Positions 725 to 55,771 of a stretch of 64,000 bases of DNA are shown one piece after another. The notes under the pieces were generated by a model, which worked only from the letters and a program-made list of their open reading frames with translations, searched no databases and was not told the origin of the DNA. The position numbers and the translations under genes were made by a program. How positions within the stretch are numbered: position 1 is the stretch's first letter; each line of letters begins with the position of its first letter. The stretch comes from a virus: IMG/VR virus record IMGVR_UViG_3300031371_000001, positions 1 to 64,000 of that record; one strand, written 5' to 3'.

Positions 725-869
725 TGTTCCCTCCGTTGTTCCCGTGTTGTTGTTTCCCGTTGCCATGATTAAGTTATAGCCCGATAGGTATCGGATGTCA
801 AGCCTTAGAGTCGATTATTTTCGGGTCCTATGTCGTTTTTATGCTAAGTCGTTGAAACAATAGGCGAAA
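722..869 (-). repeat. Direct repeat copy A (leader, promoter and upstream region)
   Basis: About 148 bases here are nearly identical in the same orientation to 1636-1774. The shared part runs from the start codon, through the GGAGG leader and the -10 and -35 boxes, to an A/T-containing upstream stretch ending GGCGAAA on the plus strand. Substitutions cluster in the leader and the palindrome centre. It looks like a duplicated expression module placed ahead of two unrelated genes. Confidence 0.85.
773..801 (-). promoter_or_regulatory. Promoter P1 with palindromic operator in the spacer
   Basis: Read on the minus strand: TTGACA (796-801), 17 bases, TATAAC (773-778). This is close to the sigma70 consensus. 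The spacer contains CCGATA-2nt-TATCGG (781-794), a 6-bp inverted repeat that would bind a dimeric regulator and block polymerase. Upstream A/T-containing sequence could act as an UP element. It drives the gene starting at 724. Confidence 0.8.
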
Positions 870-1638: not shown

Positions 1639-1774
1639 TGTTCCCTCCGTGTTGCTGTTTCCCGTTGCCATGATTAAGTTATGGCACGATACCTATCGGA
1701 TGTCAAGCCTTAGAGTCGATTATTTTCGGGTCCAATGTCGTTTTTCCGCTAAGTCCTTGAAACGATTGGCGAAA
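1636..1774 (-). repeat. Direct repeat copy B (leader, promoter and upstream region)
   Basis: Second copy of the module at 722-869, in the same orientation, covering start codon, leader, promoter P2 and upstream region. The copies differ by a few substitutions and a short deletion in the leader. Short conserved stretches persist on both sides of the promoter. Confidence 0.85.
1678..1706 (-). promoter_or_regulatory. Promoter P2 with palindromic operator in the spacer
   Basis: Minus strand: TTGACA (1701-1706), 17 bases, CATAAC (1678-1683). The spacer holds CGATA-2nt-TATCG inside 1686-1699, the same arms as in P1 but with the centre bases inverted (CC for GG on the plus strand). It drives the genes starting at 1638 and 1366. 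Confidence 0.78.
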
Positions 1775-5052: not shown

Positions 5053-5401
5053 CGATCCAATCGACAACGCCTGTAAAGGCTACGCTTGTCTTGACAGTGA
5101 ATCCCGCCGTCGATTTCGCTGAAACGTAAGTGTTGACGTTCCCGTTCGGAGTCACGACGATCTTCGGAGTCGAAGCGAACGCGGTTGCGAACGTAACGGC
5201 AACAGTATCGACAGCCGCGAAGACCGCCGATCCGCGTTGCGTTGCGTCCGGAGTAACGTTCAACTTGTCGATGATTTCGTCCGTCTTGTCGATGACCGCA
5301 TTCAGGATCTCCGCAAGGTCGGAATCGGAGATCGTGTCCGTGACGTGTGCGCCGCCCGCAAACCATTGGTTGTCGATGTTCGACAGCTTAGTGATCGCCA
5401 T
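5042..5401 (-). CDS. Tail fibre or receptor-binding accessory protein
   Basis: Encodes 119 residues. The C-terminal two thirds reads as a beta-rich domain (VDTVAVTFATAFASTPKIVV ... VSAKSTAGFTVKTSVAF), a pattern common in H-type-lectin-like and related phage fibre tip domains. The N-terminal part is helical (SDLAEILNAVIDKTDEIIDK). The start has GGAGGTGAATC. It is the last gene of a three- to four-gene fibre block and overlaps the convergent plus-strand phosphatase gene by 11 bases. The fibre role is inferred from composition and neighbours. Confidence 0.6.
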   Translation of the reverse strand: MAITKLSNIDNQWFAGGAHVTDTISDSDLAEILNAVIDKTDEIIDKLNVTPDATQRGSAVFAAVDTVAVTFATAFASTPKIVVTPNGNVNTYVSAKSTAGFTVKTSVAFTGVVDWIATL

Positions 5402-5413
5402 GATTCACCTCCA

Positions 5414-6031
5414 CTAGACCTGAAGCGCGATCGCAGAAATGATCCAGGAATTCACCTTCACGGCTGTAACCCCGTCGTCCATGACTTGCAGCTTGCAAGT
5501 CCGGGCGCCCGCGGCAAGGCCGGCCTGAAGGTGATGAGCCATTCCGGGAAGTGCGTCTTGCGTTGCGAGAAGATCGACGGGGATCGCTTGTCCGTTGTTG
5601 CCGTCGATCACGACCCGGAATTGGGCTTGCACTGCCGCCGCTGCGTTCGCTTCGGCCGAAGCTTGCGCGATCGCCATTGCGGCGCCGGCGTCGTTCAACG
5701 TGACGTCCACCGAAGCGCCCGTCACATCCTCCCAGGTTCCGCCTCCGCTCGAAGTGAACGGCCCGGTCGAAGCGTCGGAGGCGGAAGGAACCGCCTTCTT
5801 CACTTCATCGGGTCCGCTTTCGTGCGAAGCGGCGTGCGCGGTCGGCGTCCGCGCGTCCGTCATGCGGGAATCGGAATCCGAGACGTAGGGATCCCCGGCG
5901 GCCGGCGTCCCGGTGCCAGCAAGTGCCGCCTTTTCGTCAGCACTCGGAAGTTGTCCGGGGATGTCCTCCCCGTTGACCGTTGCGGTTCCCGCGCCGATCA
6001 CAATTCCATCGGTTCCAAATTCGCCGGCCAT
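5414..6031 (-). CDS. Tail fibre protein
   Basis: Encodes 205 residues. The phrase SDSRMTDARTPTAHAASHES is a hallmark linker seen in many phage tail fibres. It sits around residue 52 after a short N-terminal domain and is followed by an Ala/Ser/Gly-rich shaft-like stretch and a beta-rich C-terminus (VTAVKVNSWIISAIALQV). Start at 6031 behind AGAAGGAGGAATC. A candidate promoter lies upstream at 6064-6092. Likely a structural fibre or collar component; the receptor is unknown. Confidence 0.7.
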   Translation of the reverse strand: MAGEFGTDGIVIGAGTATVNGEDIPGQLPSADEKAALAGTGTPAAGDPYVSDSDSRMTDARTPTAHAASHESGPDEVKKAVPSASDASTGPFTSSGGGTWEDVTGASVDVTLNDAGAAMAIAQASAEANAAAAVQAQFRVVIDGNNGQAIPVDLLATQDALPGMAHHLQAGLAAGARTCKLQVMDDGVTAVKVNSWIISAIALQV

Positions 6032-6063
6032 GATTCCTCCTTCTTTCCCCCGCGTCGTTCGCT

Positions 6064-6092
6064 ATATTGTCACGATTCTGTTTGCTTGTCGA
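6064..6092 (-). promoter_or_regulatory. Candidate sigma70-like promoter for the fibre genes
   Basis: Minus strand: TCGACA (6087-6092), 17 bases, CAATAT (6064-6069), 33 bases before the start at 6031. The -35 is one base off consensus, but the -10 matches at only three positions. It lacks the CCGATA-type palindrome of P1-P3, so if real it belongs to another class. Confidence 0.35.
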
Positions 6093-6124
6093 GAGGTTGG
6101 CTAGATCCGCCTTATCAAAGCGGT

Positions 6125-6361
6125 TCAGGTGTTCATCTTGAAGTTCGGCCCCGCGTTGACTTCGATCCATCCCTTCTTTTCTTCGTCCCATCCTCGAAGT
6201 GTGTTGTCCTTTGTGTCAATGACGAAGCGATTTCGCTTTGACTTTCCGGGGAATGCATCAAGGTCTTCAGGATCCGGATATTCGGCCGGCCCATAGCATC
6301 GTTGAAAGCCTCCGAGACTTGCAATTAGATTCCTGACATTCGGAATTCTCAGGATGAACAT
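6125..6361 (-). CDS. Hypothetical protein in the fibre block
   Basis: Encodes 78 residues with start ATG behind GGAGGAAGCG. A segment NRFVIDTKDNTLRGWDEEKK resembles a tail-protein phrase in which a bound tag or capping segment is described by DTxDxxLxxWDxxxxxW repeats. This similarity is loose. It sits 9 bases after the spike-like gene and before the fibre gene, so a small virion accessory or chaperone role is reasonable but unproven. Confidence 0.5.
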   Translation of the reverse strand: MFILRIPNVRNLIASLGGFQRCYGPAEYPDPEDLDAFPGKSKRNRFVIDTKDNTLRGWDEEKKGWIEVNAGPNFKMNT

Positions 6362-7642: not shown

Positions 7643-9277
7643 CTAATCGTCGGAAGGTTCGGAAGAATCACCGATGATAAGGCGATCAAGGTCTTCAACG
7701 ATCTTCTCCGAAATGCGCCCCATGTAATCCTTCATGAAGTCGTCTTCGGAAGCCAGCTTCGGATCGACTCCTTCAGGAATTTCGACCTTCACCTTGAAGG
7801 TTTTGGCGTCTTTCACTTCTTCGATCGCCGGAACCGTTCGCTTCCAAATGAAACCGTTTTCATCGAAGCGATAAGTTGCGAGGATCACACCGTCGATATC
7901 CTTGAAATCGATCGTGCGATCGCCGTGAAGCGAATCCGTTTCGCGCGTTGCCGAAACGACGTCAAATTTCTTCAGTTCATCCAGCGTAGCAGGTAGATCA
8001 TTGATTTGAATTTCAGCCGGGAAGATTGTAAGACCGTCTTTGAATTCGACTTTCGGCTTTGCTGAAGACGCCTTCTCGATCGTCGTCTCGATTTCTCGCT
8101 TGCCTGCTTCGTCGGACGGCTTCGAGAATTTCGCACGGAAGTCTTCGAGCGATTCGTCTTTCATCGGTTCGTCTTCAGAATCGTGCTTGCCCTTCTCGAA
8201 CAAATCGGGTGGGTCTGTTCCCTTCAATCCGGTGAAGACTCCGATCGTTTTCCCGTCAACAACGATCTCGAAGTCGGGTCTTGCGTGTTCGGGCAAATCG
8301 AACCCAAGCGGTTCGGGGGGCGCCGGCGGCTTCGCCGTCGCGACGAAATCTTCATATCGCCCCGCTTTTTCAAATGCGATGATCGATCTTCTGTATCCGC
8401 GGCCGTCCGACATCCGGATCTTGAAGATCAATCCGAACTCTGAAACTTCAATCCTCCACCGTCCGCTCGAATCAGTCCCTTCATTGATGATCGATAAGCC
8501 GCCCGAATCCATCCCGGCACGATTGAAGGCGCGCATGATTGCCGATCGCAGATCAAGATCCCAAAGCGCCTTCAACTCTTGTTCAAGCACGTCAGCAAGT
8601 TCCGGAGGTTTGGCGATGTCAACGACGGGCGCCGCCCTTTCCTTTATCGTTCGAGCATAGGAACGCATGGCCTGAAGTGCGCGTTCGTGAGTTACTGCGA
8701 ATCGCTTTGAGACTTCCTCCCGTTCGTAGTCAAGCTTGCGAACGTCGAAGCCTACGCTTTCGATCCGCTTGACGGCGGCGGACATCGCTTCGGCCTGAAG
8801 GATTCCGATATCTCCCCCGCCACTATCGATCTTCGCGACTCTGAAAGATGATGTCGGGTAGTGTCCTCCGACTTCGACAGCGAACAGCGTTGCAAGTCGC
8901 CTCTTGTTTTTCGCGTTGTCTATCCAGTCGATCCCGACGACTCCAACCCCGTGTTCGGATACGCGTCCTCCAATCGCCCCATAGCTGAAATCCCAACCCT
9001 CCCCGGGCGAAGCGCCGGCTTTCGTCATGATGTCATTGATCGGTTTGGCAAGCTTCATATAGAACGGGGATCCGACATCCTCCGTGCTCCCCCACGTAAC
9101 TAGCAACCCTGTCAACGATTGTCGCAATCCGATCACGAAGCCTCGTGTCCAATCCGGCAATGGTTCCGGATTCAAGTTCGGGAAACCCGACTTCTTTGGG
9201 GCCGGTCCACGGATAGCTCCCGGATCTTTTGAAAACGCCTCCCGGAATTCTTCGAGCGTGCCGCTTGTCTTCGTCAT
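7643..9277 (-). CDS. Large unknown protein with two copies of the LEDFRxxF motif
   Basis: Encodes 544 residues from ATG 9277 behind GGAGGTGAGC; a GTG two codons upstream is less likely. The N-terminus carries GTLEEFREAFSK, and a second copy (ESLEDFRAKFSK) occurs near residue 370 after a Pro-rich linker. The product may therefore be a fusion of two tagged modules. No signal peptide, membrane segment or known catalytic motif was seen. It is the last of four consecutive genes behind promoter P3, all carrying the motif. Function unknown. Confidence 0.7.
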   Translation of the reverse strand: MTKTSGTLEEFREAFSKDPGAIRGPAPKKSGFPNLNPEPLPDWTRGFVIGLRQSLTGLLVTWGSTEDVGSPFYMKLAKPINDIMTKAGASPGEGWDFSYGAIGGRVSEHGVGVVGIDWIDNAKNKRRLATLFAVEVGGHYPTSSFRVAKIDSGGGDIGILQAEAMSAAVKRIESVGFDVRKLDYEREEVSKRFAVTHERALQAMRSYARTIKERAAPVVDIAKPPELADVLEQELKALWDLDLRSAIMRAFNRAGMDSGGLSIINEGTDSSGRWRIEVSEFGLIFKIRMSDGRGYRRSIIAFEKAGRYEDFVATAKPPAPPEPLGFDLPEHARPDFEIVVDGKTIGVFTGLKGTDPPDLFEKGKHDSEDEPMKDESLEDFRAKFSKPSDEAGKREIETTIEKASSAKPKVEFKDGLTIFPAEIQINDLPATLDELKKFDVVSATRETDSLHGDRTIDFKDIDGVILATYRFDENGFIWKRTVPAIEEVKDAKTFKVKVEIPEGVDPKLASEDDFMKDYMGRISEKIVEDLDRLIIGDSSEPSDD

Positions 9278-9446
9278 GCTCACCTCCAGGATTGCGAGAT
9301 CCAGGACGAAAACGCCACGCTTCGGCGCCCCGCCGTCACGCCCCCTAGAATGCGCGTGAATCGCCTCGAAGCACTATCCATGCGAGCATACCTCCGGGCG
9401 CCCTGAAAGCCTTCAGGGGCCGAATGCGGCGCCGTGGCGTGGCACC
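9278..9446. other. Intergenic gap within the P3 operon
   Basis: 169 bases without a supported gene, on the minus strand between the gene ending at 9447 and the start at 9277. It holds the 87-bp element at 9343-9429 and a 7-bp hairpin CCCTGAA-4nt-TTCAGGG (about 9401-9418) lacking a T-run, so it is not an obvious terminator. Confidence 0.5.
9343..9429 (+). repeat. 87-bp non-coding repeat (element E3)
   Basis: Opens CCCTAGAATGCGCGTGAATC and closes CGAATGCGG with the same 78-base offset as element E2 at 1842-1928. In the first 21 bases the two differ at only two positions. It also shares its 3' part with the minus-strand copy in 875-1004. The interior forms a small hairpin. Purpose unknown. Confidence 0.55.
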
Positions 9447-9716
9447 TCAAACGATCGAGCGAATCCACCCCGCCTCCCCCGTCGAAACGTACCCTAAGCC
9501 GTAGGAGGTGAACACCCCGCGCCCCTCGATCCCGATCACGTCTCCATCCTGTTTCACCTTGTATCCAGCGAGCCTCCACTTGCCGAACCAGCGAAGGCGT
9601 GCGGCCTCCGTGAACTCCGAAGGGAACATCCAGGTTGGAGGGTCCTTGCGTTCCTCCCCGCCTTCCTTGCGAAAGACGTTCCGCAAGTCGTCCAAGTTGC
9701 CGCTTGTGCTGTTCAT
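9447..9716 (-). CDS. Small LEDFRxxF-motif protein
   Basis: Encodes 89 residues from ATG 9716 behind GGAGGCGCAAGCT. The N-terminus contains GNLDDLRNVFRKEG. The body (RLRWFGKWRLAGYKVKQDGD) resembles the next protein upstream (DEWIELWRSQGYEANRTSEF), suggesting the two are diverged paralogues. No known domain. The start overlaps the upstream stop by 4 bases. Confidence 0.65.
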   Translation of the reverse strand: MNSTSGNLDDLRNVFRKEGGEERKDPPTWMFPSEFTEAARLRWFGKWRLAGYKVKQDGDVIGIEGRGVFTSYGLGYVSTGEAGWIRSIV

Positions 9717-9988
9717 AGCTTGCGCCTCCACTTCTTCGCCGGCCCGTTCAAGAAATAGATCGCGTCCTGGATCATGCGTCCGCTTGGACTCACACCATAG
9801 ACGACCGCCGAAAACTCGCTTGTCCTGTTCGCTTCGTATCCCTGCGAACGCCAAAGTTCGATCCATTCGTCAATCAAATCCTCCCTGATTTCCTCCGGGA
9901 AGAAAGTGTTTACGATTGGATCTGGTTTCTGTCCCTTCGCGATCCGAAATAACGCCCGGACTTCTTCTATCGTCGTCGTGTAGATCAT
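9713..9988 (-). CDS. Small LEDFRxxF-motif protein
   Basis: Encodes 91 residues from ATG 9988, coupled to the upstream gene by ATGA. The N-terminal motif is TTIEEVRALFRIAKG. The body contains LIDEWIELWRSQGYE, similar to the protein encoded at 9447-9716. No enzyme motif visible. Part of the P3 operon. Confidence 0.65.
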   Translation of the reverse strand: MIYTTTIEEVRALFRIAKGQKPDPIVNTFFPEEIREDLIDEWIELWRSQGYEANRTSEFSAVVYGVSPSGRMIQDAIYFLNGPAKKWRRKL

Positions 9989-10509
9989 GGCGTGTCCCAA
10001 TGATAAAGCTTTCCGTCCTTGCCGCAGACAACACGCTTCGAGATCGCGTCCGCCCAATGGCCGCCCTTCCCCGCCTTCGATGCGTTCAGGATCACGACGT
10101 ATCGCCAGTCCCCATGCCGCGGCGAAGACGTGACGACGATCGCCGGCTTCCAACGACACGTCGATTGACGATCGAAGATCACGAGGCGATCCTCCTGTCC
10201 CTTCCTCGCATGATAGGCGACGGCATAGGCGCAAAGTGCCCGGTCGATCATCCGGTGCCTCGAAACGTGATCGGTCCCACGGAAGACATGGAAGCGAAAC
10301 TTCCTGAAGTTCGGCTGATTGTCCGCCGTCCAGTTGATCGCGTTCACCTGTTCTTGATCGTGGACGCACATTTCGGTTGCTTCCCTGTCGGGAAGAAGAA
10401 ACGTAGGACGGATCCAAGCCTCCCCGTCCGCAACCTTCGGCTTCGGCTTCTTCGGCTTGTCCTTGACCGGCGCGCGGAATTTCTCCCGCAAGTCATCGAT
10501 TCCTGTCAT
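9985..10509 (-). CDS. Unknown protein with N-terminal LEDFRxxF motif, first gene behind P3
   Basis: Encodes 174 residues. It opens MTGIDDLREKFRAPV, followed by a Lys/Pro-rich linker (KDKPKKPKPK) and a folded domain of about 140 residues of no family I recognise (includes RYVVILNASKAGKGGHWADA). The tag-linker-body layout suggests the N-terminal helix is a docking or targeting element. Start behind CGGAGGAACC, 24 bases from the -10 box of P3. Confidence 0.68.
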   Translation of the reverse strand: MTGIDDLREKFRAPVKDKPKKPKPKVADGEAWIRPTFLLPDREATEMCVHDQEQVNAINWTADNQPNFRKFRFHVFRGTDHVSRHRMIDRALCAYAVAYHARKGQEDRLVIFDRQSTCRWKPAIVVTSSPRHGDWRYVVILNASKAGKGGHWADAISKRVVCGKDGKLYHWDTP

Positions 10510-10532: not shown

Positions 10533-10561
10533 GTTATACCACGATGGGAATCGGTTGTCAA
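10533..10561 (-). promoter_or_regulatory. Promoter P3 with operator-like spacer
   Basis: Minus strand: TTGACA (10556-10561), 17 bases, TATAAC (10533-10538). The spacer holds CGAT-4nt-ATCG (within 10540-10553), a weaker version of the palindrome in P1 and P2. The -35 is preceded by GGC, as in P1, P2 and P4. It drives the motif-tagged genes 10509 to 7643. Confidence 0.75.
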
Positions 10562-15580: not shown

Positions 15581-16044
15581 CGTTTGCGTGGGTCCTTGAT
15601 CTTGACGATTTGAGCGAAGGTGATTTCGTCTTCGTCGTCAAGGATGATCGAAACGGGAAGTGCCACTTCACGCCCGAAGACGTTGACGGCTCCACCGAAG
15701 CGGATCGAAGTCAGGACGCCCGTTCGGGTGATCCCTTCCTTTGTGTCAACCGCGATCTTCTTCCCGATAAGGGTCGAAAGATCGATGTCCCATGAGAATA
15801 CAACGTCTGTCGCCATTTGTTCCTCCACCGAATCCCATAGCCTTTGCAGTCGTTGATATATGGGATCGTCCTTCAGTTCAATGCCCTTCAGCTTGCAAAC
15901 AAGATTTCGATCGCGGATCATTTCAGCGAACGATTCGAGCATCAAAGAAACGTCGGGGATCTGCAAGTTACGCTTGACGGTCCCGGCGATTGCCGCCGCG
16001 CCGTCCGCCGCCTCGACTTCCTTTTCTTTCGGTTCGTCCGTCAT
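15577..16044 (-). CDS. Hypothetical protein, C-terminal small beta-barrel-like domain
   Basis: Encodes 155 residues. The N-terminal half is helical (VSLMLESFAEMIRDRNLVCK). The C-terminal 60 residues read as five short strands (KKIAVDTKEGITRTGVLTSI ... SIILDDEDEITFAQIVKI), a pattern reminiscent of Sm/Hfq-like barrels. That fold guess is weak and needs structure prediction. Operonic overlaps on both sides. Confidence 0.58.
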   Translation of the reverse strand: MTDEPKEKEVEAADGAAAIAGTVKRNLQIPDVSLMLESFAEMIRDRNLVCKLKGIELKDDPIYQRLQRLWDSVEEQMATDVVFSWDIDLSTLIGKKIAVDTKEGITRTGVLTSIRFGGAVNVFGREVALPVSIILDDEDEITFAQIVKIKDPRKR

Positions 16045-16595
16045 GATTTCTTTCTGAACAGATCCCGGACGCCTTCAAGATCCTTCGGTGTCGGAACCTC
16101 GATAGGTTCTTCGTCTTCCTCGAAGATCAAGATATCGTCGTCCGCCGTGTCTTCGAGTCGGACGGATTCGCCGCGCCTTCGCTTCTTCGTCTTATAGCCA
16201 GCCTTCGCCTTGTAACCGTCCGGAACATCCGTGGAGTCTTCGACTTCAACGGGTTCGTCAAGAGTCGAAGCAAGCGCAATCGCATTCGCGCGTGTCATTG
16301 GCAGGAGGACAAGTTCATTATGTCCAACCCTCTCGACTTGGAAGTGAAGACGGACCTTCGATGAAGAAGCCCCGCCAACCTCGATCAAGTCGTTGTTGTG
16401 TAACGTCCCAACCGAGAAGAAGACGCCAGAATAGGAACGGGGTTCAACACGTTTCAAGAACTTGCGATCGAATCCGTAATTGGGATCTGTTCCCTGGATC
16501 TTCGCAATGTACTTGACGCCTCCCGGCGCCGCGGCCTCGAATGCTTCGGATTCGATACAAGCGCGACCTCGGATCGTTGTAAGCCTGACTTCCAT
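16041..16595 (-). CDS. Unknown protein ending in a LEDFRxxF motif
   Basis: Encodes 184 residues. The N-terminal domain is beta-rich, followed by a basic linker (KAKAGYKTKKRRRGE) and an acidic stretch (DDDILIFEEDEEPIE). It ends with KDLEGVRDLFRKKS, the same motif carried at the N-terminus of the P3-operon proteins. A C-terminal copy on an otherwise different protein suggests a portable docking peptide. Function unknown. Confidence 0.65.
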   Translation of the reverse strand: MEVRLTTIRGRACIESEAFEAAAPGGVKYIAKIQGTDPNYGFDRKFLKRVEPRSYSGVFFSVGTLHNNDLIEVGGASSSKVRLHFQVERVGHNELVLLPMTRANAIALASTLDEPVEVEDSTDVPDGYKAKAGYKTKKRRRGESVRLEDTADDDILIFEEDEEPIEVPTPKDLEGVRDLFRKKS

Positions 16596-16616
16596 TCTAC
16601 CTTGTATATATGGGAT

Positions 16617-17201
16617 TCAGCCCGTAACCGTTTCGACGGCAAGACTCAAGTCTTGTTTGAAGGCGGCCGTCCGTTCCTTTGAATGCGATCGGAGAAGTCC
16701 GGAGGGATGGAATGTCGCAAGCGCCTTGAATTCTTCCAGTTCGCCGGCGTCGTTGAAGACGTATCCGGGGAGCATCTTTCCATGATGCTTGCCGATCCCG
16801 ACCTCCCCGGTTAGCGCCGTCAGCGGCACGGCTCCGACAGCAAGGATCAACGAAGGTTGGAGGATCCGGATCGCCGCGTCGAACAGTTTTCGGCAAGCGT
16901 TCACCTCGGAAGCAACCGGCGCCCGGTTCCCCGGTGGGAAACAAGCGACAGTGTTGACCGTGAAGGCGTCCTCCATGTCGAACCCGATGTCCTCGAACGT
17001 CTTTCGGATCAGCTTCCCCGCGCGTCCCTGGAAAGGCTTTCCCGTCTTGTCTTCCTCGGCTCCCGGCGCTTGTCCAAGAATCACGAGCGGAACGGCGTAG
17101 CGCCCGGAGCCGTAAACGACGCGGCGCCGCGTGCGCGAAAGCCGGCATTTGTCGCAATGCTTCCAGGCTTTCGCTTCGTATAGCAACGCTTCAGGAATCA
17201 C
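16617..17201 (-). CDS. Family 4-type uracil-DNA glycosylase
   Basis: Encodes 194 residues from GTG 17201. Family 4 signs are clear: HCDKC near residue 17 and two later Cys (VACFPPG and VNACRK) for a 4Fe-4S cluster; motif 1 GQAPGAEEDKTGKPFQGRAG; and motif 2 TFHPSGLLRS. Length matches the family. It removes uracil from DNA to start base-excision repair. Presence beside the 5'-3' exonuclease and resolvase fits a repair/replication block and suggests the phage DNA contains thymine, not uracil. Confidence 0.9.
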   Translation of the reverse strand: MIPEALLYEAKAWKHCDKCRLSRTRRRVVYGSGRYAVPLVILGQAPGAEEDKTGKPFQGRAGKLIRKTFEDIGFDMEDAFTVNTVACFPPGNRAPVASEVNACRKLFDAAIRILQPSLILAVGAVPLTALTGEVGIGKHHGKMLPGYVFNDAGELEEFKALATFHPSGLLRSHSKERTAAFKQDLSLAVETVTG

Positions 17202-17400
17202 TATCGACCTCCTTGAAGTCGAAGATCAAGTTCAAGATATCTTCAGCCGCTTGATTGCGCGTCTTCGGATCCGTGATTCCGTATCGATCATGAAGAAGCA
17301 TTGCGACATTCGAGCGATAACCCTCCCGAAGATCCTCCTCCTTCAAATGCTTCGCCATTGTTCGACGCGCCTCCGCGAATTCGTTTTCAATCTTCGCCAT
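17191..17400 (-). CDS. Small helical hypothetical protein
   Basis: Encodes 69 residues, start ATG 17400 behind GAGGAGGTAGATC. Charged and helical throughout (FAEARRTMAKHLKEEDLREG), acidic C-terminus. It overlaps the glycosylase start by 11 bases. Function unknown. Confidence 0.6.
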   Translation of the reverse strand: MAKIENEFAEARRTMAKHLKEEDLREGYRSNVAMLLHDRYGITDPKTRNQAAEDILNLIFDFKEVDSDS

Positions 17401-17647
17401 GATCTACCTCCTCGTTTCGTCCCATTGGATGAAAGAAGATCAACCAAGATGGATCTTCGTGCGGTTCCCGTGTGCTAATCGCGCCTATGAAATAGCGCGA
17501 ATGATCGTCCTTTTTTTCGTGAAACACTAGATCGTGCAAGTGCAAAGACAACCCGTTGATCCGAATCAAAGGTGCGTCCCCTTCTTTGAAGACAAGCATT
17601 GGCACTTGTGGAGCGACGACAAGCCCGGGATAAAATGGCTTCCTCAC
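17387..17647 (-). CDS. Hypothetical protein
   Basis: Encodes 86 residues from GTG 17647, coupled to the exonuclease gene by GTGA. Beta-rich, with His residues (LHLHDLVFHEKKDDHSRYF). Nothing identifies a family. Confidence 0.58.
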   Translation of the reverse strand: MRKPFYPGLVVAPQVPMLVFKEGDAPLIRINGLSLHLHDLVFHEKKDDHSRYFIGAISTREPHEDPSWLIFFHPMGRNEEVDHGED

Positions 17648-18519
17648 TCGTCCTCCTCGATCAAAGACTCGAAGACGAACGGATCCAGGGCTTCACGGAT
17701 CTTGTGCTTGAAGATCAGCTTCTTCGCCTTCTTCCGATTGGCCGCCTTCTTCCGTTCCTTGAAGTCGATCAACCGAAGCGCCGCAAGCTTCCAGGACAGC
17801 ATTGCGGAATCACGCCCCGCTTGCATCTTTTCGGCAAGCTTCGGCGGCTTCACGTCGCCGTTATCGAGTGCGCGATAGATCGAGAACAAGTCCCCATATT
17901 GCTTGATCAGCTTGACGGCGTTGACGGGTCCGACTCCGTGGACGCCCTTGTAATTGTCCGACGAATCGCCGGCGATCGCCTTCAGCGTTTGGACCATTTC
18001 CGGAGGAACGCCAAGCTTCGATTCGACGTATCGCCTCGAAAGAGGCTTCCCTGTCGGATGCAAGACGAAGACCCCCGGGAACCTGACAAGCTGAAGAAGA
18101 TCCGCGTCCATAGAATAGACGATCACTGTCGGAGGGTTTTCTTCCTTTCGCGCCCGAATCACGATCGAATGGATCACGTCGTCAGCCTCGAACCCTTTCC
18201 GATAGGCTTGCGTGATTCCCATTGCTTCGAGCAACGGGATCAGAATCTTGATCGCATCCTTGACAGCGCCTCGCATCATTTCGAGGTTCGCGTCTTTGCG
18301 CCGCTTCGACTTGTAATCAACGAAGATCCGTTTGCGGAACGATTCGCCAACGTCCCACGCAACGATCGTCTTCTTCGTCTTGTGGTATCGCGGCAGGGTC
18401 GAAAGCCAACCCATGAAGCGGCCGGCGTGCTTGCTCGATTCTTCGAGCGGCGCCGCGCCGACAACGCGCCAGATCAATTGATTCCCGTCGATAACCGCTA
18501 GTCTCGTTTCACTATCCAT
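17644..18519 (-). CDS. 5'-3' exonuclease / flap endonuclease (FEN family)
   Basis: Encodes 291 residues, the usual size for phage T5/T4-type 5' nucleases. Metal-binding motifs are in order: AVIDGNQLIWR near residue 11, a conserved DYKSKRRKD arch segment, FEADDVIHS, and YSMDADLLQL. The helix-3-turn-helix GDSSDNYKGVHGVGP follows. It removes RNA primers and 5' flaps during lagging-strand synthesis, supplying the activity missing from a DnaE-type polymerase. Overlaps the resolvase gene by 22 bases. Confidence 0.9.
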   Translation of the reverse strand: MDSETRLAVIDGNQLIWRVVGAAPLEESSKHAGRFMGWLSTLPRYHKTKKTIVAWDVGESFRKRIFVDYKSKRRKDANLEMMRGAVKDAIKILIPLLEAMGITQAYRKGFEADDVIHSIVIRARKEENPPTVIVYSMDADLLQLVRFPGVFVLHPTGKPLSRRYVESKLGVPPEMVQTLKAIAGDSSDNYKGVHGVGPVNAVKLIKQYGDLFSIYRALDNGDVKPPKLAEKMQAGRDSAMLSWKLAALRLIDFKERKKAANRKKAKKLIFKHKIREALDPFVFESLIEEDE

Positions 18520-24721: not shown

Positions 24722-25792
24722 TCAGTCAAGCAAGGAATCAAGATCGTCGTCTTCGTCGCCGTCGTCCGATCCGCCGTCGTCCGTCCCGGTGTCGTCTTCC
24801 TCCTCCTCCGGGGCTTCGTCGCCCTTCGACTTGCCTCCCGCCTTTTCCTGACATTCCCCGACCATCTTGCAAGCCTCGCAAGCCGGATCGTCTTCGTCGT
24901 AATCGATCCCGAAACAAGGAGGCTTCTTCACCTTGTCCTTCTTCTTCCCGTCGTCCTTCTTCGTCTTCTTCTTCTTCGAGGAGGAGGATGACTTCTTCTT
25001 CTCCGTCTTCTTTTCCTCCCCGTCGTCCGATTCCTCCCCGCCGGCGTCGTCGTCCTCGAACAGATCGTCCGCCTCCTTCGGTTCGTCCTCGACTTCCATC
25101 CCGTCCGCCGCTGCGGCGAGTTCATCGCCCGTCTTCAGCATTCGGACAAGGATCTTGTGACAGTCGCAAGCCCCGTCCTCGACGGCGGCCTCCAGGACCA
25201 TTGCCGCATACTTCTTCGGAAGTGGCTTCGGGTCCTTCAACGACTTCATGTGAGCCATGACGGTGTATTCCGTGTCGTTCTTCTTCCGACCGGAACGCTT
25301 GATCTTGAAGAAGACGGCGCCCTTCAGATCGCAGATCGACTCCCCGACTTCGAGAAGAAGATCGGCAACCCCGTTCCAAACGGAACGCGGAGCAAGGTAG
25401 GGCCGAACCTCGATCGGATCGTACTTTCCCCACTCACGATCGCGCGGTCCCTTCAGTTGGAGCGGAAGGACGGCCATCATGAACTTGACGGAAGGCTTGT
25501 TGCCCTTCTCGCAAAGCGGACAGGTCTTCGGAAGCTTCTTCCCTTCCCCCTTCAGGACGGAGCGGAAGATCGGATCCTTCAGGATTGGGTTCTTCTCCGC
25601 ATTGGCGCAAACGATCCCGGCGTCCCCCGTGTAATGCATCGCAACGGGATAGTAGGGTTCGCTTGCATCCCGGATCGGTGGGCAAAGAAAGATGATATGC
25701 TCCCCCTCCGCAGCGGCGAAGAACGGGGCGCCGTCGCCTCTACCTTGCTTGTATCTGTCCTTGTCTGCGGCGATCTTGTCCTTGTCGATCAT
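24722..25792 (-). CDS. Candidate single-stranded DNA-binding protein
   Basis: Encodes 356 residues. The N-terminal domain has HIIFLCPPIRD and KTCPLCEKG, with strands in the middle (VRPYLAPRSVWNG). A long Lys/Ser/Glu-rich linker follows, then a second Cys group (PPCFGIDY, ACEACKMVGEC) and a strongly acidic tail ending DEDDDLDSLLD. A folded domain with zinc-like Cys plus acidic C-tail is the layout of gp32-type SSBs. It lies beside SbcD-SbcC, HU and polymerase genes. The fold is not proven. Confidence 0.6.
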   Translation of the reverse strand: MIDKDKIAADKDRYKQGRGDGAPFFAAAEGEHIIFLCPPIRDASEPYYPVAMHYTGDAGIVCANAEKNPILKDPIFRSVLKGEGKKLPKTCPLCEKGNKPSVKFMMAVLPLQLKGPRDREWGKYDPIEVRPYLAPRSVWNGVADLLLEVGESICDLKGAVFFKIKRSGRKKNDTEYTVMAHMKSLKDPKPLPKKYAAMVLEAAVEDGACDCHKILVRMLKTGDELAAAADGMEVEDEPKEADDLFEDDDAGGEESDDGEEKKTEKKKSSSSSKKKKTKKDDGKKKDKVKKPPCFGIDYDEDDPACEACKMVGECQEKAGGKSKGDEAPEEEEDDTGTDDGGSDDGDEDDDLDSLLD

Positions 25793-26466: not shown

Positions 26467-29079
26467 TCATGCCTTCCGTATTCGTTGGAAGATCACGGAA
26501 CGTTTCCCGTCCCGCATTTCCTTTTTGATTTTCAGTTTGACGGGATCTCCGTATCGGATCCTTTCGTCCTTCACGTCGATCCAGCTTGACGAAAAGCAAA
26601 CGCCGTCCGCCGCCTTGCCCGGTCCCTGGACCGTAACGAAAGCCATTTCGTTGCCGTTCTTATCGTTGATCGTCCGGGCGCCGGCGTAGATCCGAAGCCC
26701 CCGGGGAAGTTCCTTGCGGATTATCAGTTCCCAATAGTCGAGGTCCGCCCCTTCTCGAAGCTTGTTGTCGAGGTCCGAAACCGACACGAGGAATTGGAGG
26801 ACGGGTGCCTTCCAGCCCCGGTGATAATGGCCGATCACGAGATCCCCTTCCATCGCTTCCGGATTGCAAGCGTTCAAAGCTTCTTCGTCCATCTTGAAGC
26901 GATTGGGTTTTATGTCCCCGCCGTCGATCGAAAGCGAACCGTAAATCCGAGTTTCGCCCTTCGAGTTGATCGATTCGTTGATCTTGCATTCCTTCAAGGC
27001 TCCGATGAAGAATCCGTCGTCCGTCTTCTCGACCCTTTCGGGTTCGACAGTCTTGACCTTGACGACACGTTCGACAAGTTCGGCCGAACGCTCCAACGGG
27101 TGAGTCCTGATCACGAATGGGTTGACCTCCGAAGCAACGTCGTTGAATTCGTCGTTGTCGAAATCGTCCTTCGCCTTCGACGCTTCAAGGAACTTCAGGA
27201 TCTTGATCTTCCCTTCTTCACTCGCCTTCAACCTCCAAAGCTTGTCGAATCGCGCCAACGTCTCGCGTGCGTTCGGGATGATCGCCTCCATCGCCCGCGC
27301 CTGAATCAACGTCGAGACAACACGCTTGTTCGCAGACGGGCAACGTTCGATGAAGTCGATCAAGTTCTTGAACGGCTGTCCCTCTTGGATTTCATCAACC
27401 GCCTTCTTCGATACGAACTTGATATCCTCCAGGGACGGGACGATCTTTCCGTCAACGACCCTGTAGACCCCGCCGGCGTTTTGCACGTTCGGCGGCTCGA
27501 ACCCGATCCCCCGGCGTTCGAGTTCCTTGACGTATGCAAGGATCTTTTCTTGCTTCGGTTCGTTCTTCATGACTGCGAGAAAAAACGCTTCGGGATAATG
27601 GACCTTCAACCATTGTGTCCAATAGGCGATCACGCTGTAAGCCGTAGCGTGGGACTTGTTGAAGCTATAGCCCCCGAACTCGCAAAGCTGATCCCAAAGC
27701 CCCTCCGCGCGATCGCCTCGCATCCCGGCGCCCATTGTCGCGCCGTCAATGAACTTGCCAGCGTATTCACGCAAGGCGTCCGCCCCCTTGGACTTGCCGA
27801 TTAACTTTCGCACCTTGTCGGCTTCTTCCGGCGTGAAGCCGCCCAACTCGCGGCAAAGCTTGATAACGTGTTCCTGAAAGACGGGAACCCCCAACGTGTC
27901 AGCCGTGATCGAATCATAGACGGGATGCAACGATTCGATCTTTTCAGGATCCGCGTTTCGTTCGAGGTAGGCTTGTGCGAGTCCGCTTCGAGCGGTCCCA
28001 GGACGATCAAGGCTTGTCATCGCAACGATCACGTCAAAGTCCGTGAACTCGACTCCGCGGCAAAGCGCGATCGCTGAAGGTGAATCGAACTGGAAGACCC
28101 CAATCATATCGCCAGCCGTGAAAGCGTCGAGTGTCGGCCGGTCGTCAAGGTCGATCTTCGTCAAGTCGATTTTGTCCCCCGTCATTGCGTGCGCCACTTC
28201 GATCGCGTCCTTCACGATCGAAAGCGTCCGCAAGCCGAGAAGATCAAGCTTCAGCAATCCGCAATCCTGGACACCCCACATATCAAAAGCCGTGACAGCT
28301 TCACCGTCGCGCGCCTCGATAGGTGTGATCCTCGACAACGGAACCGGCGACACGACGACACCCGCCGCGTGGACTCCAAGGTTTCGGACGTGCCCCTCGA
28401 TCACTTCGGCGTATTCGAGAACATCCGGGTATTTGTCAAGGAAGGCTTGGACGTGTTCGCTTGCATCGGCCGACATCGCAAGCGGAACCTTCGGATCTAT
28501 CGCTTCGGAAACCTTGTTCACTTCGTCCAGACTGATCAGCATGACGCGCCCTAGATCCCTGACTAGAAGGCGTGCGCCCATTTTGTTTACAGTGCCGACC
28601 CTGGCAACACGATCGCGCCCGTATCGTTCCGACAAGTAGCCGATCAATTCGTCGCGGCGCCTGTCCTCGAAGTCGAGGTCAACGTCCGGAAGATCGATCC
28701 GTCCGGGAGCAAGGAACCGTTCGAACAACAGATCATGCCGAATGGGATCAACGTCCGTCACTCCAAGCAAGTAGAGGATCAGCGAACCGGCGGCGCTTCC
28801 ACGTCCCGGTCCTACCAGGATCCCGCGGCGCTTCGCCTCCGCGACAAGATCACGGATGATCAGGAAGTAATCGATCACCCCGCGCCTGTCGATTTCCTTG
28901 ATCTCGTGTCGAAGCCTTTTCGTGTAGACCTTCAGGATCTTCGACTTCGGGACGCCGCGCCGCCCGCCAAGCGCCTCCGCGCGCGTCGGAATCTCGCGTT
29001 CCTTCCAGCCTAACTCGCAAAGGTATTCGAGATAATGGAGGTTCCGCTCCCGCTCGATCGTCACTGTTTCACTTTTCAT
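26467..29079 (-). CDS. DNA polymerase III alpha-type (DnaE) catalytic chain, split from its PHP domain
   Basis: Encodes 870 residues from ATG 29079. It opens in what is normally the interior of DnaE. Key motifs: GPGRGSAAGS (90-99) and the catalytic aspartates PDVDLDF (131-137), then DnaE finger segments (FSFDSPSAIALC-like, HAAGVVVSP, KSHATAYSVIAYWTQWLKVH). The C-terminal region includes a likely OB-type domain. The upstream gene encodes the PHP domain, and the two overlap as ATGA, so the C-family replicative polymerase is made as two chains. Confidence 0.9.
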   Translation of the reverse strand: MKSETVTIERERNLHYLEYLCELGWKEREIPTRAEALGGRRGVPKSKILKVYTKRLRHEIKEIDRRGVIDYFLIIRDLVAEAKRRGILVGPGRGSAAGSLILYLLGVTDVDPIRHDLLFERFLAPGRIDLPDVDLDFEDRRRDELIGYLSERYGRDRVARVGTVNKMGARLLVRDLGRVMLISLDEVNKVSEAIDPKVPLAMSADASEHVQAFLDKYPDVLEYAEVIEGHVRNLGVHAAGVVVSPVPLSRITPIEARDGEAVTAFDMWGVQDCGLLKLDLLGLRTLSIVKDAIEVAHAMTGDKIDLTKIDLDDRPTLDAFTAGDMIGVFQFDSPSAIALCRGVEFTDFDVIVAMTSLDRPGTARSGLAQAYLERNADPEKIESLHPVYDSITADTLGVPVFQEHVIKLCRELGGFTPEEADKVRKLIGKSKGADALREYAGKFIDGATMGAGMRGDRAEGLWDQLCEFGGYSFNKSHATAYSVIAYWTQWLKVHYPEAFFLAVMKNEPKQEKILAYVKELERRGIGFEPPNVQNAGGVYRVVDGKIVPSLEDIKFVSKKAVDEIQEGQPFKNLIDFIERCPSANKRVVSTLIQARAMEAIIPNARETLARFDKLWRLKASEEGKIKILKFLEASKAKDDFDNDEFNDVASEVNPFVIRTHPLERSAELVERVVKVKTVEPERVEKTDDGFFIGALKECKINESINSKGETRIYGSLSIDGGDIKPNRFKMDEEALNACNPEAMEGDLVIGHYHRGWKAPVLQFLVSVSDLDNKLREGADLDYWELIIRKELPRGLRIYAGARTINDKNGNEMAFVTVQGPGKAADGVCFSSSWIDVKDERIRYGDPVKLKIKKEMRDGKRSVIFQRIRKA

Positions 29080-30125
29080 TCGGCCGCCCCCTTGCCGTGA
29101 CGTTCCCGACGCCACTTGTCGAAACCGTCCAACAAGCCGGGTTCGATCTCGACAGCCGGGAGAAGGGCCGCGAATTTATCGACCTTGAAGGTTGCGTTGC
29201 AACGTTCCCCGATTTCATCGGTCGAAGCGATCGCTTCGTCTATCGCGTTCCCGTCGAGTCCTTGCGCCTCGAAACCTTCGCGCATTTCCTCCTCCGATTT
29301 CATCCAGTATTCGGATCCGGTGAACCGAAACCGCTTCGGTGAAATCAGGTTCCCGTGTGTCGTGATCGCAAGCAACGCTTCGTGAGCCGCCGAGTCGCCG
29401 GGTTCGGTGTAATGCGCGTCCTGAGTTGCTACCAGGGGGAGATCGTATCGGCGCGCGATCTTCACAAGCCCCTGATTCGCCTTCGCCAAATCCTCCCCAA
29501 GCGATACGTGGGGCATGATTTCGAGGTATAGCCTAGAATCTCCGTAAATAGCCCGTAGACGCTCCAAGTGTCGAAGGGCTGTCCTTGCGCGTCCCTCCCT
29601 GAGTTCGCGCGCCACGGGGCCAATGGGACAGCCTGACAGGCAAACGACGCCTTCGGAGTAGTCCTCCAGGATCCCGAAGTCGAGTCGGGGCCGCTTGAAG
29701 GCGAATCCGTCGATCCATCCCCGGGAGGAAAGCTGGAAAAGGTTGGAAAGTCCTTCGTCGTTCTCGGCTAGAAGCGTCAGGTGATAGCGCGGCCGGATCC
29801 CAAGCTTAATTTCCGCCTGATACGTCGCCTCCCGCTGTTGCGACCTCGGGAAGCTCGCCTTGATTTGCTCCGACACGTCCGGGGGAAGTTCTTTCGTGAA
29901 CCTGTCGTTTGCAAGATAAGCTTCGAAACCGAAGATAGGCTTGATCCCGATCTCCGAAAGCGTCTCGTTTTGATTGCGGACTCCACGCATCGATCCATGT
30001 TCAGTGAAGGCGATCGCCGTATGTCCAAGCGACTTCGCCTTTTCACCGAATCGCTTTTGCGAACCGCAACCGTCGAGGATCGAGTATTCGGAATGAACGT
30101 GCAAATGGATCAAAGGATCCTCCAT
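29076..30125 (-). CDS. DnaE N-terminal PHP-domain chain
   Basis: Encodes 349 residues. It begins IHLHVHSEYSILDG, the first PHP motif, followed by HTAIAFTEHGSMRGV, CLSGCPIGPVA and ATQDAHYTEPGDSAAHE. These are the metal-ligand motifs of an intact PHP domain, which in DnaE may support proofreading or structural stability. It ends near the position where the DnaE palm begins, and the next start overlaps its stop. Together the chains total about 1219 residues, similar to whole DnaE. Confidence 0.88.
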   Translation of the reverse strand: MEDPLIHLHVHSEYSILDGCGSQKRFGEKAKSLGHTAIAFTEHGSMRGVRNQNETLSEIGIKPIFGFEAYLANDRFTKELPPDVSEQIKASFPRSQQREATYQAEIKLGIRPRYHLTLLAENDEGLSNLFQLSSRGWIDGFAFKRPRLDFGILEDYSEGVVCLSGCPIGPVARELREGRARTALRHLERLRAIYGDSRLYLEIMPHVSLGEDLAKANQGLVKIARRYDLPLVATQDAHYTEPGDSAAHEALLAITTHGNLISPKRFRFTGSEYWMKSEEEMREGFEAQGLDGNAIDEAIASTDEIGERCNATFKVDKFAALLPAVEIEPGLLDGFDKWRRERHGKGAAE

Positions 30126-31049: not shown

Positions 31050-32900
31050 CTACCTACCAAGCGCGCGCCGAAGCTTACGGAACAGGACCCCCGGCAGTTG
31101 CGAGAGATCGTCCACGGTAACGGCGTTCTTGTAATAGTTCGTGATCCCACTATACCGAAGTCCGATCGCGATCACCTCGACGCCCTTGTGATTGTCGATC
31201 CAGCCGGTGATCCGCTTCAAGTGCTGTTGCTGTTTCGTATCAGGTCCACAAATAGGCGATCCGTCCGACAGGACGAAAAGCACCTTGCGCGCCTCCGGGC
31301 GATGAAGAAGACGCTTCGCCGCCCACTCGACGGCTTCGCCGTCGCCGTTCTCGCAATCGGCTTGCGCCGATCCAAGCCGCGTCTTCTCGGTTTCCCATGA
31401 TTCCCCGAACGCCTTGTAAACGTTGAACCGGAAAGGGAGGGTCCTGTCGTATCCGTCGCGGCTCGGCGGCGTACCGCTGTAAACGTTCGTGAATCCGTTG
31501 ATCTCGAACTTGATCCCGATCTGATTCAGCGCCCGGGAAAGTGCGACGACGGCGGCGATCGTGTCGTCCATGTCCCCTGACATCGAACCCGATTCGTCAA
31601 TCAGGATCCCGACCGCTGTATCGGCATAACCGATTTCCCGCTTGTCGTCCCTCTTGAAAACCTTCGTGTTGAACCGGGCAAGCCTCGCAAGCTTCGTCCT
31701 ATCGATCTTCCCATGACGAAGCCCGTAATCCGTCGAGTGATCCGTTGACAGGAGGACAAGACGAAGGCGGCTGGCAAGTGCGCCAACAATCTTCTTCGCC
31801 TTTTCGTCACGAACCCTGAATCTCGCAACGTTCTTCGGCGCCCTGACGATCCTATCGTTTTGGAGTGCGATCGGATGGGTCGAGTAGACCCCGCGTGTTT
31901 CCTCCTCTGCAATCCGCTTCGTTTCTTTGTGAAAGGTCCCGGTTTCTCCGTCCGAACCGGACGCGGCCTTCAGCGCCTTGATCAATCCGGCCAGATTTTC
32001 GGCTTCCTCCTTCGTCAGCTTGATCGCCTTCCCGCCGCTCGCCGCTTCGCCTTCCTTCCCCTCGGAAGCCTCGACGCCAGCCGCGGAACCGCCTTCGCCT
32101 TCCTCCCCTTCGCCTTCGCCGTCCCCGCCGATCGTGATCACAAGGTCCCCCTCCGCTTCGTCGGCGGCCTTGCGCGCCTCCTCCGCTTCATCCCCCATTT
32201 CCTCCAGCCGATCGCAAAGCTCGATCGCAAGATCAAGCGTGTCGTCCGTCCAACGCGATTCTTTAGCCCGGGGAATGAAGTCGGAAAGATGCTCGATAAC
32301 GAAGGCCGCTCCCGCCTGAAGGATTTCATTCTTCGACTCACGAAGCGACGGCGACAGCGCCTCCGCGATGAAAGCCTTTCCAACGGCGTCGGCAAATTCG
32401 GGTGGCTTCGGCTCCGCTTCCAACTTCTCGATCATGAAGAAGCGAGTTCGAGTTAGGTTGACGTGGACACCGGCCCAACGCTTCATTCCCTCCGTCTCGA
32501 TCGATACGTCCTCCAAGACGTTCAACCACATTGGGAGGATCCCGTATTTCTCCGGGTTCGATTTCTTCAATTCGTCGGCCCGCTTCGCGCAAGCCTCCCA
32601 GGTTGCTGACTTCCTCTTGATCGCGTTCTTCAACGCCTTTTCGTTTCGGAGGACGTGCAACCATTCGTGATCGAGTTCCCCGTCAACGATCCACCGTTCG
32701 GCGTACATTTTCGGGAGCGTGATCGTTGAAGTCGTGTCAGTGTAACAGCCCGTCCCGAAGTTCACCTTGATCCCTGTGTTCTTCGAGAACACTCGCGCGA
32801 TCTTCTCGCAATACCTTTCATCAACTTTCTTGCGATAGTGATCGCCAACGTCGATCGTCAGTTCGGAAGGAAGCGGGGTTTCCATCGTTGCGGCCGACAT
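31050..32900 (-). CDS. CobT-like protein: metallopeptidase motif plus VWA domain
   Basis: Encodes 616 residues. HEWLH at residues 78-82 is an HExxH zinc-peptidase motif, followed by NVLEDVSIE, a plausible third ligand segment. A highly acidic Gly/Glu linker (EGEGEEGEGG) sits near the middle. The C-terminal von Willebrand A domain has an intact MIDAS (DESGSMS) and later VLFVLSDGSP. With the AAA+ gene next door, it mirrors the CobS-CobT pairs of cobalt chelatases and MoxR-VWA chaperones, which remodel or insert metal into targets. A phage role is not established. Confidence 0.82.
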   Translation of the reverse strand: MSAATMETPLPSELTIDVGDHYRKKVDERYCEKIARVFSKNTGIKVNFGTGCYTDTTSTITLPKMYAERWIVDGELDHEWLHVLRNEKALKNAIKRKSATWEACAKRADELKKSNPEKYGILPMWLNVLEDVSIETEGMKRWAGVHVNLTRTRFFMIEKLEAEPKPPEFADAVGKAFIAEALSPSLRESKNEILQAGAAFVIEHLSDFIPRAKESRWTDDTLDLAIELCDRLEEMGDEAEEARKAADEAEGDLVITIGGDGEGEGEEGEGGSAAGVEASEGKEGEAASGGKAIKLTKEEAENLAGLIKALKAASGSDGETGTFHKETKRIAEEETRGVYSTHPIALQNDRIVRAPKNVARFRVRDEKAKKIVGALASRLRLVLLSTDHSTDYGLRHGKIDRTKLARLARFNTKVFKRDDKREIGYADTAVGILIDESGSMSGDMDDTIAAVVALSRALNQIGIKFEINGFTNVYSGTPPSRDGYDRTLPFRFNVYKAFGESWETEKTRLGSAQADCENGDGEAVEWAAKRLLHRPEARKVLFVLSDGSPICGPDTKQQQHLKRITGWIDNHKGVEVIAIGLRYSGITNYYKNAVTVDDLSQLPGVLFRKLRRALGR

Positions 32901-32901
32901 C

Positions 32902-34059
32902 TTACAGGCTCCCCGGGATATGGCGCTGAATCACCCCGTCCACGAAGTCCCTGTCCTCCGTCAGCCTGTCCAGGACGGAAAGCTTCGACGCAAGCTTGAA
33001 GTTCTTGAGATCCTGAATCGAGCGCCCCCACGCAATCAGCTTGCGAGTCGAGAACGTGCAAGCGCAATCTTCGTTCTTGAATCCCTGTCGAACGTCGCGC
33101 GCGATCTTGACCATTTTGGAAGCCAGCTTCGGATCGACTCCAAGCTTCTTCAGGATCTCGACCTCGACCTCCTCCGAAGGGTATTCGGTGCGGTAGACCC
33201 TGAAGCGATCGATCGAAGCTTCGTTCAGGATATGGGTTCCGTCGTAAACGACGCCTCCCTCCCCCTTGCCGACCGTGTTCCCGGTTGCAAGGATCCGAAA
33301 CAGCTTGTGCGGCACGATGATCTCGCCCGTGTTCGGAACGGTGAAGTAGCCGTCATTCAAGATTTGCTGAAGGCAAAGGATCGTTCCGCTCGAAGCGGCG
33401 TCCATTTCGTCGCAGATCAACCAGGACCCTTCGATCATCGCCTTGATCAAGATTCCCGGCTTGAAGGTCGTAACCGGGGCGCCGTCCTTCACGTCGATCG
33501 CGTCCTCCCCGATGAAGTGCGATCCGTCCGTGTCGTGTGAAAGGGAAATGTGGCGAATGGGCTGATTCACCATCGCCGCAACCTCCTTCAACAAGGACGT
33601 CTTCCCGCAACCCGTGTCCCCGACAAGGTACAGGGCTTGCTTCGTGCGAATGCAATACGCGATCACCTCCAACCGTTCGTCGTTCGGGTCAACGACGTAT
33701 CCGGGATCGTGCTTCGGGATGAAAGGGTGATCGTCCGCCTTGCGGATCTTCAAGGACTGCGATCCGAAGTAAAGACGATCATTCTCGAAGTCGGGATCGA
33801 CAGGGTGGATATCGTCCGCTTCCGCGGCAAGAGCATTCGCCGCCGCGCGCGAAGCCGTCGCCGTCGCCTTACCCTGATTCTTGAAGGGATTGAATTCGTC
33901 CCTCAGACCGTCCGCCAAGATCGGGGCGTCCGGGAACTTCGCTCGATAGTCGTCCGCCGTGATCCCGTGCTTGCTGTTGAGGTGAACGGGAAGCGCCTTG
34001 AAGTGTCTGCCGCAGATTCGGCAAACGATCTTCCCGTCCGTCGTCGTTGTCGTGTCCAT
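32902..34059 (-). CDS. MoxR/CobS-like AAA+ ATPase with N-terminal zinc finger
   Basis: Encodes 385 residues from ATG 34059 behind GGAGGGTTCA; the ATG at 34089 is too near the transcription start of promoter P4. The N-terminus has CRICGRHFKALPVHLNSKHG, a Ros/MucR-like C2H2 finger. AAA+ motifs follow: Walker A GDTGCGKTS, Walker B LICDEMDAA, sensor 1 ILATGNT. It ends 2 bases before the VWA-peptidase gene, its likely partner. The DNA-binding finger suggests recruitment to nucleic acid. Confidence 0.85.
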   Translation of the reverse strand: MDTTTTTDGKIVCRICGRHFKALPVHLNSKHGITADDYRAKFPDAPILADGLRDEFNPFKNQGKATATASRAAANALAAEADDIHPVDPDFENDRLYFGSQSLKIRKADDHPFIPKHDPGYVVDPNDERLEVIAYCIRTKQALYLVGDTGCGKTSLLKEVAAMVNQPIRHISLSHDTDGSHFIGEDAIDVKDGAPVTTFKPGILIKAMIEGSWLICDEMDAASSGTILCLQQILNDGYFTVPNTGEIIVPHKLFRILATGNTVGKGEGGVVYDGTHILNEASIDRFRVYRTEYPSEEVEVEILKKLGVDPKLASKMVKIARDVRQGFKNEDCACTFSTRKLIAWGRSIQDLKNFKLASKLSVLDRLTEDRDFVDGVIQRHIPGSL

Positions 34060-34100: not shown

Positions 34101-34129
34101 CTTATAGCCTGTTACCTTTCGAGAGTCAA
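34101..34129 (-). promoter_or_regulatory. Promoter P4 ahead of the AAA+/VWA/sigma/polymerase genes
   Basis: Minus strand: TTGACT (34124-34129), 17 bases, TATAAG (34101-34106). It shares GGC before the -35 and an upstream TAATCGG-like block with P1 and P2, but the palindrome in the spacer is degenerate. If the operator is a repressor site, P4 should escape that control. Confidence 0.7.
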
Positions 34130-55237: not shown

Positions 55238-55291
55238 GCGTCCCTCCAAACGCCCATTCCGGGCTTGTGAAGAACCTTAAAGGTTGGAGCC

Positions 55292-55314
55292 GCCTCCCTA
55301 CGTGGGGAGGAGGC
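55292..55314 (-). other. Strong hairpin at the end of the tail-tube gene
   Basis: GCCTCC-type arms flank a loop that contains the stop codon of the tube gene. No T-run follows, so it is probably not a full terminator. It may protect the highly expressed tube mRNA from 3' decay or lower downstream expression. Confidence 0.5.
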
Positions 55315-55738: not shown

Positions 55739-55771
55739 GGCTTCCTCCTATCGGGTTTCTTGCCCGTCCGA

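Follow-up and report, generated by a model that had tools for sequence, protein, structure and literature searches.

The internal proteins of phage T4 are a diverse set, united by nothing but a conserved targeting sequence (PMC3012670), and DarB of phage P1 carries an N-terminal packaging signal (PMC9024508). Encapsulation peptides of bacterial microcompartments are short helices that are joined by a flexible linker to either end of the cargo and have conserved hydrophobic positions (PMC11157265). Sliding-clamp-binding peptides are short peptides on many proteins that dock on one hub (PMC3716654), and the nucleus of jumbo phages imports proteins selectively (PMC11087766). Here, we describe a short tag that recurs in the predicted proteins of another phage; a literature search found no description of it in the open-access set, which is not proof of novelty.

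The IMG/VR record is 100,651 bases long, and its first 64,000 bases are the window, i.e., the whole stretch of DNA under analysis. The bases beyond the window were added, and the motif scan took in every predicted protein of the whole record (127 proteins, called with a simple codon-usage and ribosome-site model). Because this model is simple, gene starts are our own estimates; for the gene at 7643-9277, for instance, the start is better placed at ATG 9277 than at GTG 9283. Since the ends of the record (1-203 and 100449-100651) overlap by 203 bases with one mismatch, the genome is most likely complete and circularly closing, with a length of ~100.4 kb. The record carries no mark of closure, despite its overlapping ends.

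Tag copies, their carriers and their promoters

All six tag sites named in the preliminary description are present in the genes to which it had assigned them. They are given below with their genes, tag coordinates being those of 14-residue stretches.

9985-10509, minus strand: tagged gene, 174 residues, body without known relatives; tag TGIDDLREKFRAPV (core GIDDLREKF) at the N-terminus, 10465-10506, minus strand
9713-9988, minus strand: tagged orphan gene, 91 residues; tag TTIEEVRALFRIAK (core TIEEVRALF) at the N-terminus, 9935-9976, minus strand
9447-9716, minus strand: tagged orphan gene, 89 residues; tag GNLDDLRNVFRKEG (core NLDDLRNVF) at the N-terminus, 9660-9701, minus strand
7643-9277, minus strand: orphan gene with two tags, 544 residues; tag GTLEEFREAFSKDP (core TLEEFREAF) at the N-terminus, 9221-9262, minus strand, and tag ESLEDFRAKFSKPS (core SLEDFRAKF, at residue 377) in an internal linker, 8114-8155, minus strand
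16041-16595, minus strand: gene with a C-terminal tag, 184 residues, weak match to phrog_26647, a family of unassigned function; tag KDLEGVRDLFRKKS (core LEGVRDLF) at the extreme C-terminus, 16044-16085, minus strand

Over the whole record, the scan yielded 13 tag sites in 12 proteins. Those outside the window are as follows (record coordinates).

78262-78303: tag in the N-terminal region of the gene at 76930-78366
84202-84243: tag in the gene at 83605-84327
96072-96113: tag at the N-terminus of the gene ending at 95235
97418-97459: tag at the N-terminus of the gene ending at 96131
97978-98019: tag
98613-98654: tag
99263-99304: tag at a C-terminus

The tag is N-terminal in most of its carriers, internal in the 7643 (second copy), 97471 and 98271 proteins, and C-terminal in the 16041 and 99260 proteins. 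In the gene at 7643-9277, the second tag, ESLEDFRAKFSKPS, is preceded by a methionine, so that this gene may have arisen when two tagged genes fused.

The bodies of the tagged proteins do differ, as had been claimed, in that Pfam and PHROG searches gave none of them a function-bearing match. Some are partly related: the 95235 and 96131 proteins share zinc-ribbon sequence, and the 97471 and 98271 proteins are similar around the tag. Neighbouring tags also share longer flanks (PVETIGG in 97471 and 99260, PVEKVSG in 98271). Homologues of two tagged proteins were sought in cultured phages and homologues of four in IMG/VR, with none found in either case, and a single-sequence structure prediction of the 16041-16595 protein gave no usable fold (pLDDT 35). 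A separate observation concerns a cluster of zinc-ribbon-like, cysteine-rich proteins outside the window (record 82599-84327 and 95235-97393), several of which are tagged; in this cluster, the 95235 and 96131 proteins consist of CxxC units repeated many times.

Three promoters that belong to a single sigma70-like family head the operons of ten of the 12 tagged genes; the members of this family are listed here.

10533-10561, minus strand: sigma70-like promoter TTGACA-17-TATAAC, a consensus match, heading the four-gene tagged operon (P3 of the preliminary description)
773-801, minus strand: promoter of the same sigma70-like family, TTGACATCCGATACCTATCGGGCTATAAC
79011-79039 of the record: promoter TTGACATCCGATACCTATCGGGCTATAAC, identical to the copy at 773-801
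1678-1706 (minus strand), 34101-34129 (minus strand) and 94984-95012 of the record: weaker promoters of the family

The promoter at 773-801 would read across the record ends into the operon at 99260-95235, which lies outside the window and holds five tagged genes. Promoters of this family also head operons without tagged genes. Their shared spacer is partly palindromic, with CCGAT-N4-ATCGG in the two identical copies and a variant at 10533-10561, and could serve as an operator for a phage repressor. Promoter function is predicted from these elements, and the tagged genes would then be transcribed early by the host polymerase.

Specificity and nature of the motif

The tag has a consensus of ~12 residues, roughly [GS]-[ST]-[LI]-[ED]-[ED]-[LVF]-R-x-x-F-[SR]-K. 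Along its helix, positions i, i+3 and i+7 are hydrophobic and positions i+1 and i+2 acidic, and the arginine at i+4 is invariant. The strict core, [ILVMF][DE][DE][ILVMF]R..F, occurs eight times in the 127 proteins against 0.11 expected (mean of composition shuffles, with a maximum of 2 in 300 shuffles; Poisson 6e-13), five of the eight sites being ones that had defined the pattern. The out-of-sample sites, in the 83605, 98271 and 99260 proteins and at the N-terminus of the gene ending at 95235, number four against the same expectation (p ~6e-6). A blind search for recurrent 11-residue words returned the tag as the largest cluster in this phage, where zinc-ribbon words rank second, and again in a relative (G006).

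With a profile built from all 13 tags, the tags score 14.4-22.6 bits and everything else in six frames scores at most 6.8 bits. When each tag was held out in turn, 10 of the 13 outscored the best non-tag; the exceptions were GALEEVRRRFRRKP, KSLERMRSLFRAKP and TAIETTRSLFSKPK, of which the last two are the least certain members. An earlier profile gave its ten training tags 27.5-36.7 bits and one tag kept out of training 29.3 bits, while its best match in 58 genomes from the phylum of a myxobacterial bin (~310 Mb) scored 18.1 bits, below all tags. The best outside matches sit in long open frames of ordinary proteins, and this location of the look-alikes suggests that the tag sequence is physically a capped helix start. 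The preliminary description would have been undermined by a profile that is widespread in unrelated helices; across the ~310 Mb, we found only weak, single look-alikes in folded proteins, none near tag scores, and the reading of the tag as a widespread helix was rejected. Against the PDB, the profile gave chance-level matches only, so that the motif was not found there as a known structural motif. A degenerate DNA pattern of the exact tag form matched one locus in IMG/VR, with a score well under those of the tags; in its exact form, the dialect therefore seems to be confined to this phage.

At residues shared between pairs of tags, the codons are the same in 224 of 451 cases, compared with 192 expected from codon usage. 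This near-randomness indicates that a peptide has been conserved and not that a DNA segment was recently copied, and recent duplication of the tag as DNA was rejected on this ground. The claim that linkers persist around the motif is also borne out, with the flanks of 12 of the 13 tags reaching or exceeding the 90th percentile of disorder propensity in this proteome.

Tag dialects and gene content in related phages

Relatives were gathered by means of the capsid protein (43 IMG/VR contigs), and several of them have variants of the tag on differing bodies of their own. G006 has them on five proteins, four N-terminal and the fifth, FGSLEELRDWLREKNQ, at the very C-terminus; G003 on three proteins, of which one is tagged at the C-terminus and two at the N-terminus; G009 and G005 on two or three proteins each; and G008 and G017 on one protein each. 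In G001, two proteins are tagged, one N-terminally with MPTLDELRRRFST and the other, a DUF6011 protein, with LPSIEEIRSRF in its linker. Four of the variants are the N-termini of related proteins with an ExoX-like_C domain, an assignment for which the three scanned proteins score just under the Pfam cut-off, and two more are the N-termini of a small protein that contains cysteines and is orthologous between its carriers. In the AlphaFold model of a tagged ExoX-like_C protein, residues 4-12, where the tag lies, form an isolated helix, followed by a linker of low confidence and by a C-terminal domain of high confidence; a fold search with the model of a tagged relative gave no significant match. 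The ExoX-like_C proteins in G003 (5148-6225), G004 (54413-56076) and G008 (54732-56034) adjoin kinase-like nucleotide-binding genes and the one in G009 (16310-18248) adjoins a thymidylate-synthase-like gene, all of these labels having been given by eye.

Tags from one genome resemble each other more than tags from different genomes do (permutation p 0.0005, and 0.003 when this phage is left out). On the orthologous small protein, the G001 tag is nearer to further G001 tags than to the G003 tag, and the converse holds for the G003 tag; the ExoX-like_C proteins give a mixed result, with two of four tags nearer to those of their own genome. Part of this within-genome likeness could come from gene duplication, e.g., of adjacent genes in G005.

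The tagged phages have in common with this one a replication module of DNA polymerase III alpha, a PHP protein, a DnaB-like helicase (35138-36493 in this phage), a primase-like protein (34197-35141) and the following two proteins, which co-occur with the tag and are candidate hubs.

32902-34059, minus strand: MoxR/CbbQ-type AAA+ ATPase
31050-32900, minus strand: CobT-like vWA protein

The head genes of this phage are found from 62827 onward. Contigs that share the capsid and tail genes and are without the AAA+/vWA pair have no tag (G007, G010, G014, G015 and G016, as well as shorter contigs). Another contig, of 101 kb and from a Myxococcales bin, is related in its capsid and tail genes and has neither the pair nor a tag. 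There are two exceptions: G004 carries the module, but all that it shows of a tag is a similar N-terminus, unscored by the profile, and G002, which is probably a fragment, has one tag and no module. Among contigs of at least 50 kb, the rough table of tag against AAA+/vWA pair reads 7/1/1/6 (Fisher p ~0.01), drawn from few, partly incomplete genomes and from linked genes, such that any early gene would correlate.

Several further observations were made on this region and its relatives. The AAA+/vWA pair at 31050-34059 is often annotated as cobaltochelatase in other phages. At 26467-30125, the PHP protein and the polymerase of DNA polymerase III alpha are encoded separately, whereas a relative (L115) has one 1200-residue gene. 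The protein encoded at 24722-25792 was considered as a single-stranded-DNA-binding protein for its N-terminus and acidic tail and was dropped, with nothing found in Pfam or PHROGs; a search with it returned one further locus, covering the untagged replication region only. The capsid protein of the phage-like 101 kb contig in the Myxococcales bin (L103, G021:C63) has 52% identity, which hints at a myxobacterial host for the clade or may be a binning artefact.

Candidate partners and comparison with known systems

The preliminary description had proposed a docking tag bound for a compartment, capsid or complex. Its portability stands, given the varied positions and bodies, the disordered flanks, the divergent codons and the dialects, while the destination is a candidate only; as a reading of these sequence features, a portable docking tag appears well supported. 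We infer that the tag binds a protein and that all copies bind the same one. Our preferred reading, to which we give about an even chance, is that a genuine short docking motif recruits mostly unrelated, probably early proteins to one common hub, most likely in the early/replication module of the phage. A helix of 9 to 12 residues would be carried on flexible tails and linkers, and such flexible short helices could bring diverse accessory proteins to one binding groove, offered by replisome proteins or by the MoxR-type AAA+/CobT-like vWA pair in preference to the capsid. Since the presence or absence of the tag appears to follow the module more than the capsid genes, a hub in this module is the more likely, with the AAA+/vWA pair as one candidate among several.

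The main rival, less favoured and in our view unlikely, is a tag for capsid targeting. The tagged proteins would then be cargo of the virion, brought in via the scaffold or the head and delivered into the host by ejection. The architecture is as in the T4 case (PMC3012670) and in P1 DarB (PMC9024508), and most tags are N-terminal; however, internal and C-terminal copies occur too. Tags are missing from phages, the 101 kb contig among them, that combine another replication module with the same genes for capsid, portal and tail, although several of these contigs are incomplete and a lineage without cargo would give the same picture. In addition, the tagged proteins are not consistently basic (pI 4.7-9.7), and their promoters look early, which is a weak point because cargo genes can be early.

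Somewhat more doubtful is a hub of the host, such as a polymerase, clamp, protease, or membrane or chromosome factor, that several early phage proteins seek out. The early-type promoters agree with this, short peptides on many proteins do reach host hubs such as the sliding clamp, and the dialects could track different hosts. On the other hand, the presence of the tag tracks phage gene content among the relatives, the motif is unlike the clamp motif, and the 58 genomes have no high-scoring comparable tag on host proteins, although a hub need not carry the tag itself.

Improbable, and ranked below a host hub, is an element of self-assembly or turnover, in which tagged helices would pair mutually or mark proteins for degradation. 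The hydrophobic spacing could allow packing in bundles, but nine-residue helices are short for stable self-pairing and an internal position is unusual for a degradation tag. Chance or local duplication, i.e., an ordinary capped helix start without shared function, is very improbable: single look-alikes in folded proteins and the longer flanks common to some neighbouring tags speak for it, but the count, the codon divergence and the dialects at N- and C-termini in several other phages do not, and the score gap and the recurrence in relatives have already largely refuted it.

Returning to a docking motif with a hub in the replication module, one specific form of it, which we hold to be speculative and only slightly less doubtful than self-assembly, is that the AAA+ ATPase and the vWA protein at 31050-34059 recognize the tag, perhaps by way of its acidic pair and the metal site of the vWA protein, and act on a dozen interchangeable early proteins by assembling or remodelling them. 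If this were true, new proteins would join simply by gaining a tag, and tag and receptor would co-evolve within each phage lineage. More generally, most early phage genes are orphans without predicted function. The tag would group at least 12 early proteins as probable clients of one hub, and finding the partner would make the set interpretable. This would be a modular recruitment code inside a tailed phage, and not obviously of the capsid-targeting kind.

The tag appears to work like known docking systems, with membership in any of them as a candidate only. Clamp-binding peptides occur in flexible segments of unrelated proteins and have a consensus of the QL[SD]LF kind, which by inspection is absent from the tag, and no phage clamp was recognized in the replication module. 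The jumbo-phage nucleus is similar in its phage-encoded sorting of selected early proteins, whereas the phage described here is of ~100 kb and has an ordinary replication module; no nuclear shell protein was recognized among the annotated proteins. Encapsulation peptides place a helix on a linker, as the tag probably does, to judge from one AlphaFold model and from flank disorder. However, they form amphipathic helices of 15 to 20 residues, whereas the tag has 9 to 12, is strongly charged and has an invariant arginine, and no microcompartment shell protein was recognized among the proteins annotated here. Capsid targeting of the T4 type is N-terminal, while the tag is also internal and C-terminal; moreover, unlike in T4 and P1, no tie to capsid genes was seen among the relatives, and the tag comes in dialects by genome. 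What it shares with T4 and P1 is one short peptide on phage proteins of unlike fold that could recruit them to one place, and what it shares with short linear docking motifs in general is unrelated carriers, disordered segments and few fixed positions under selection.
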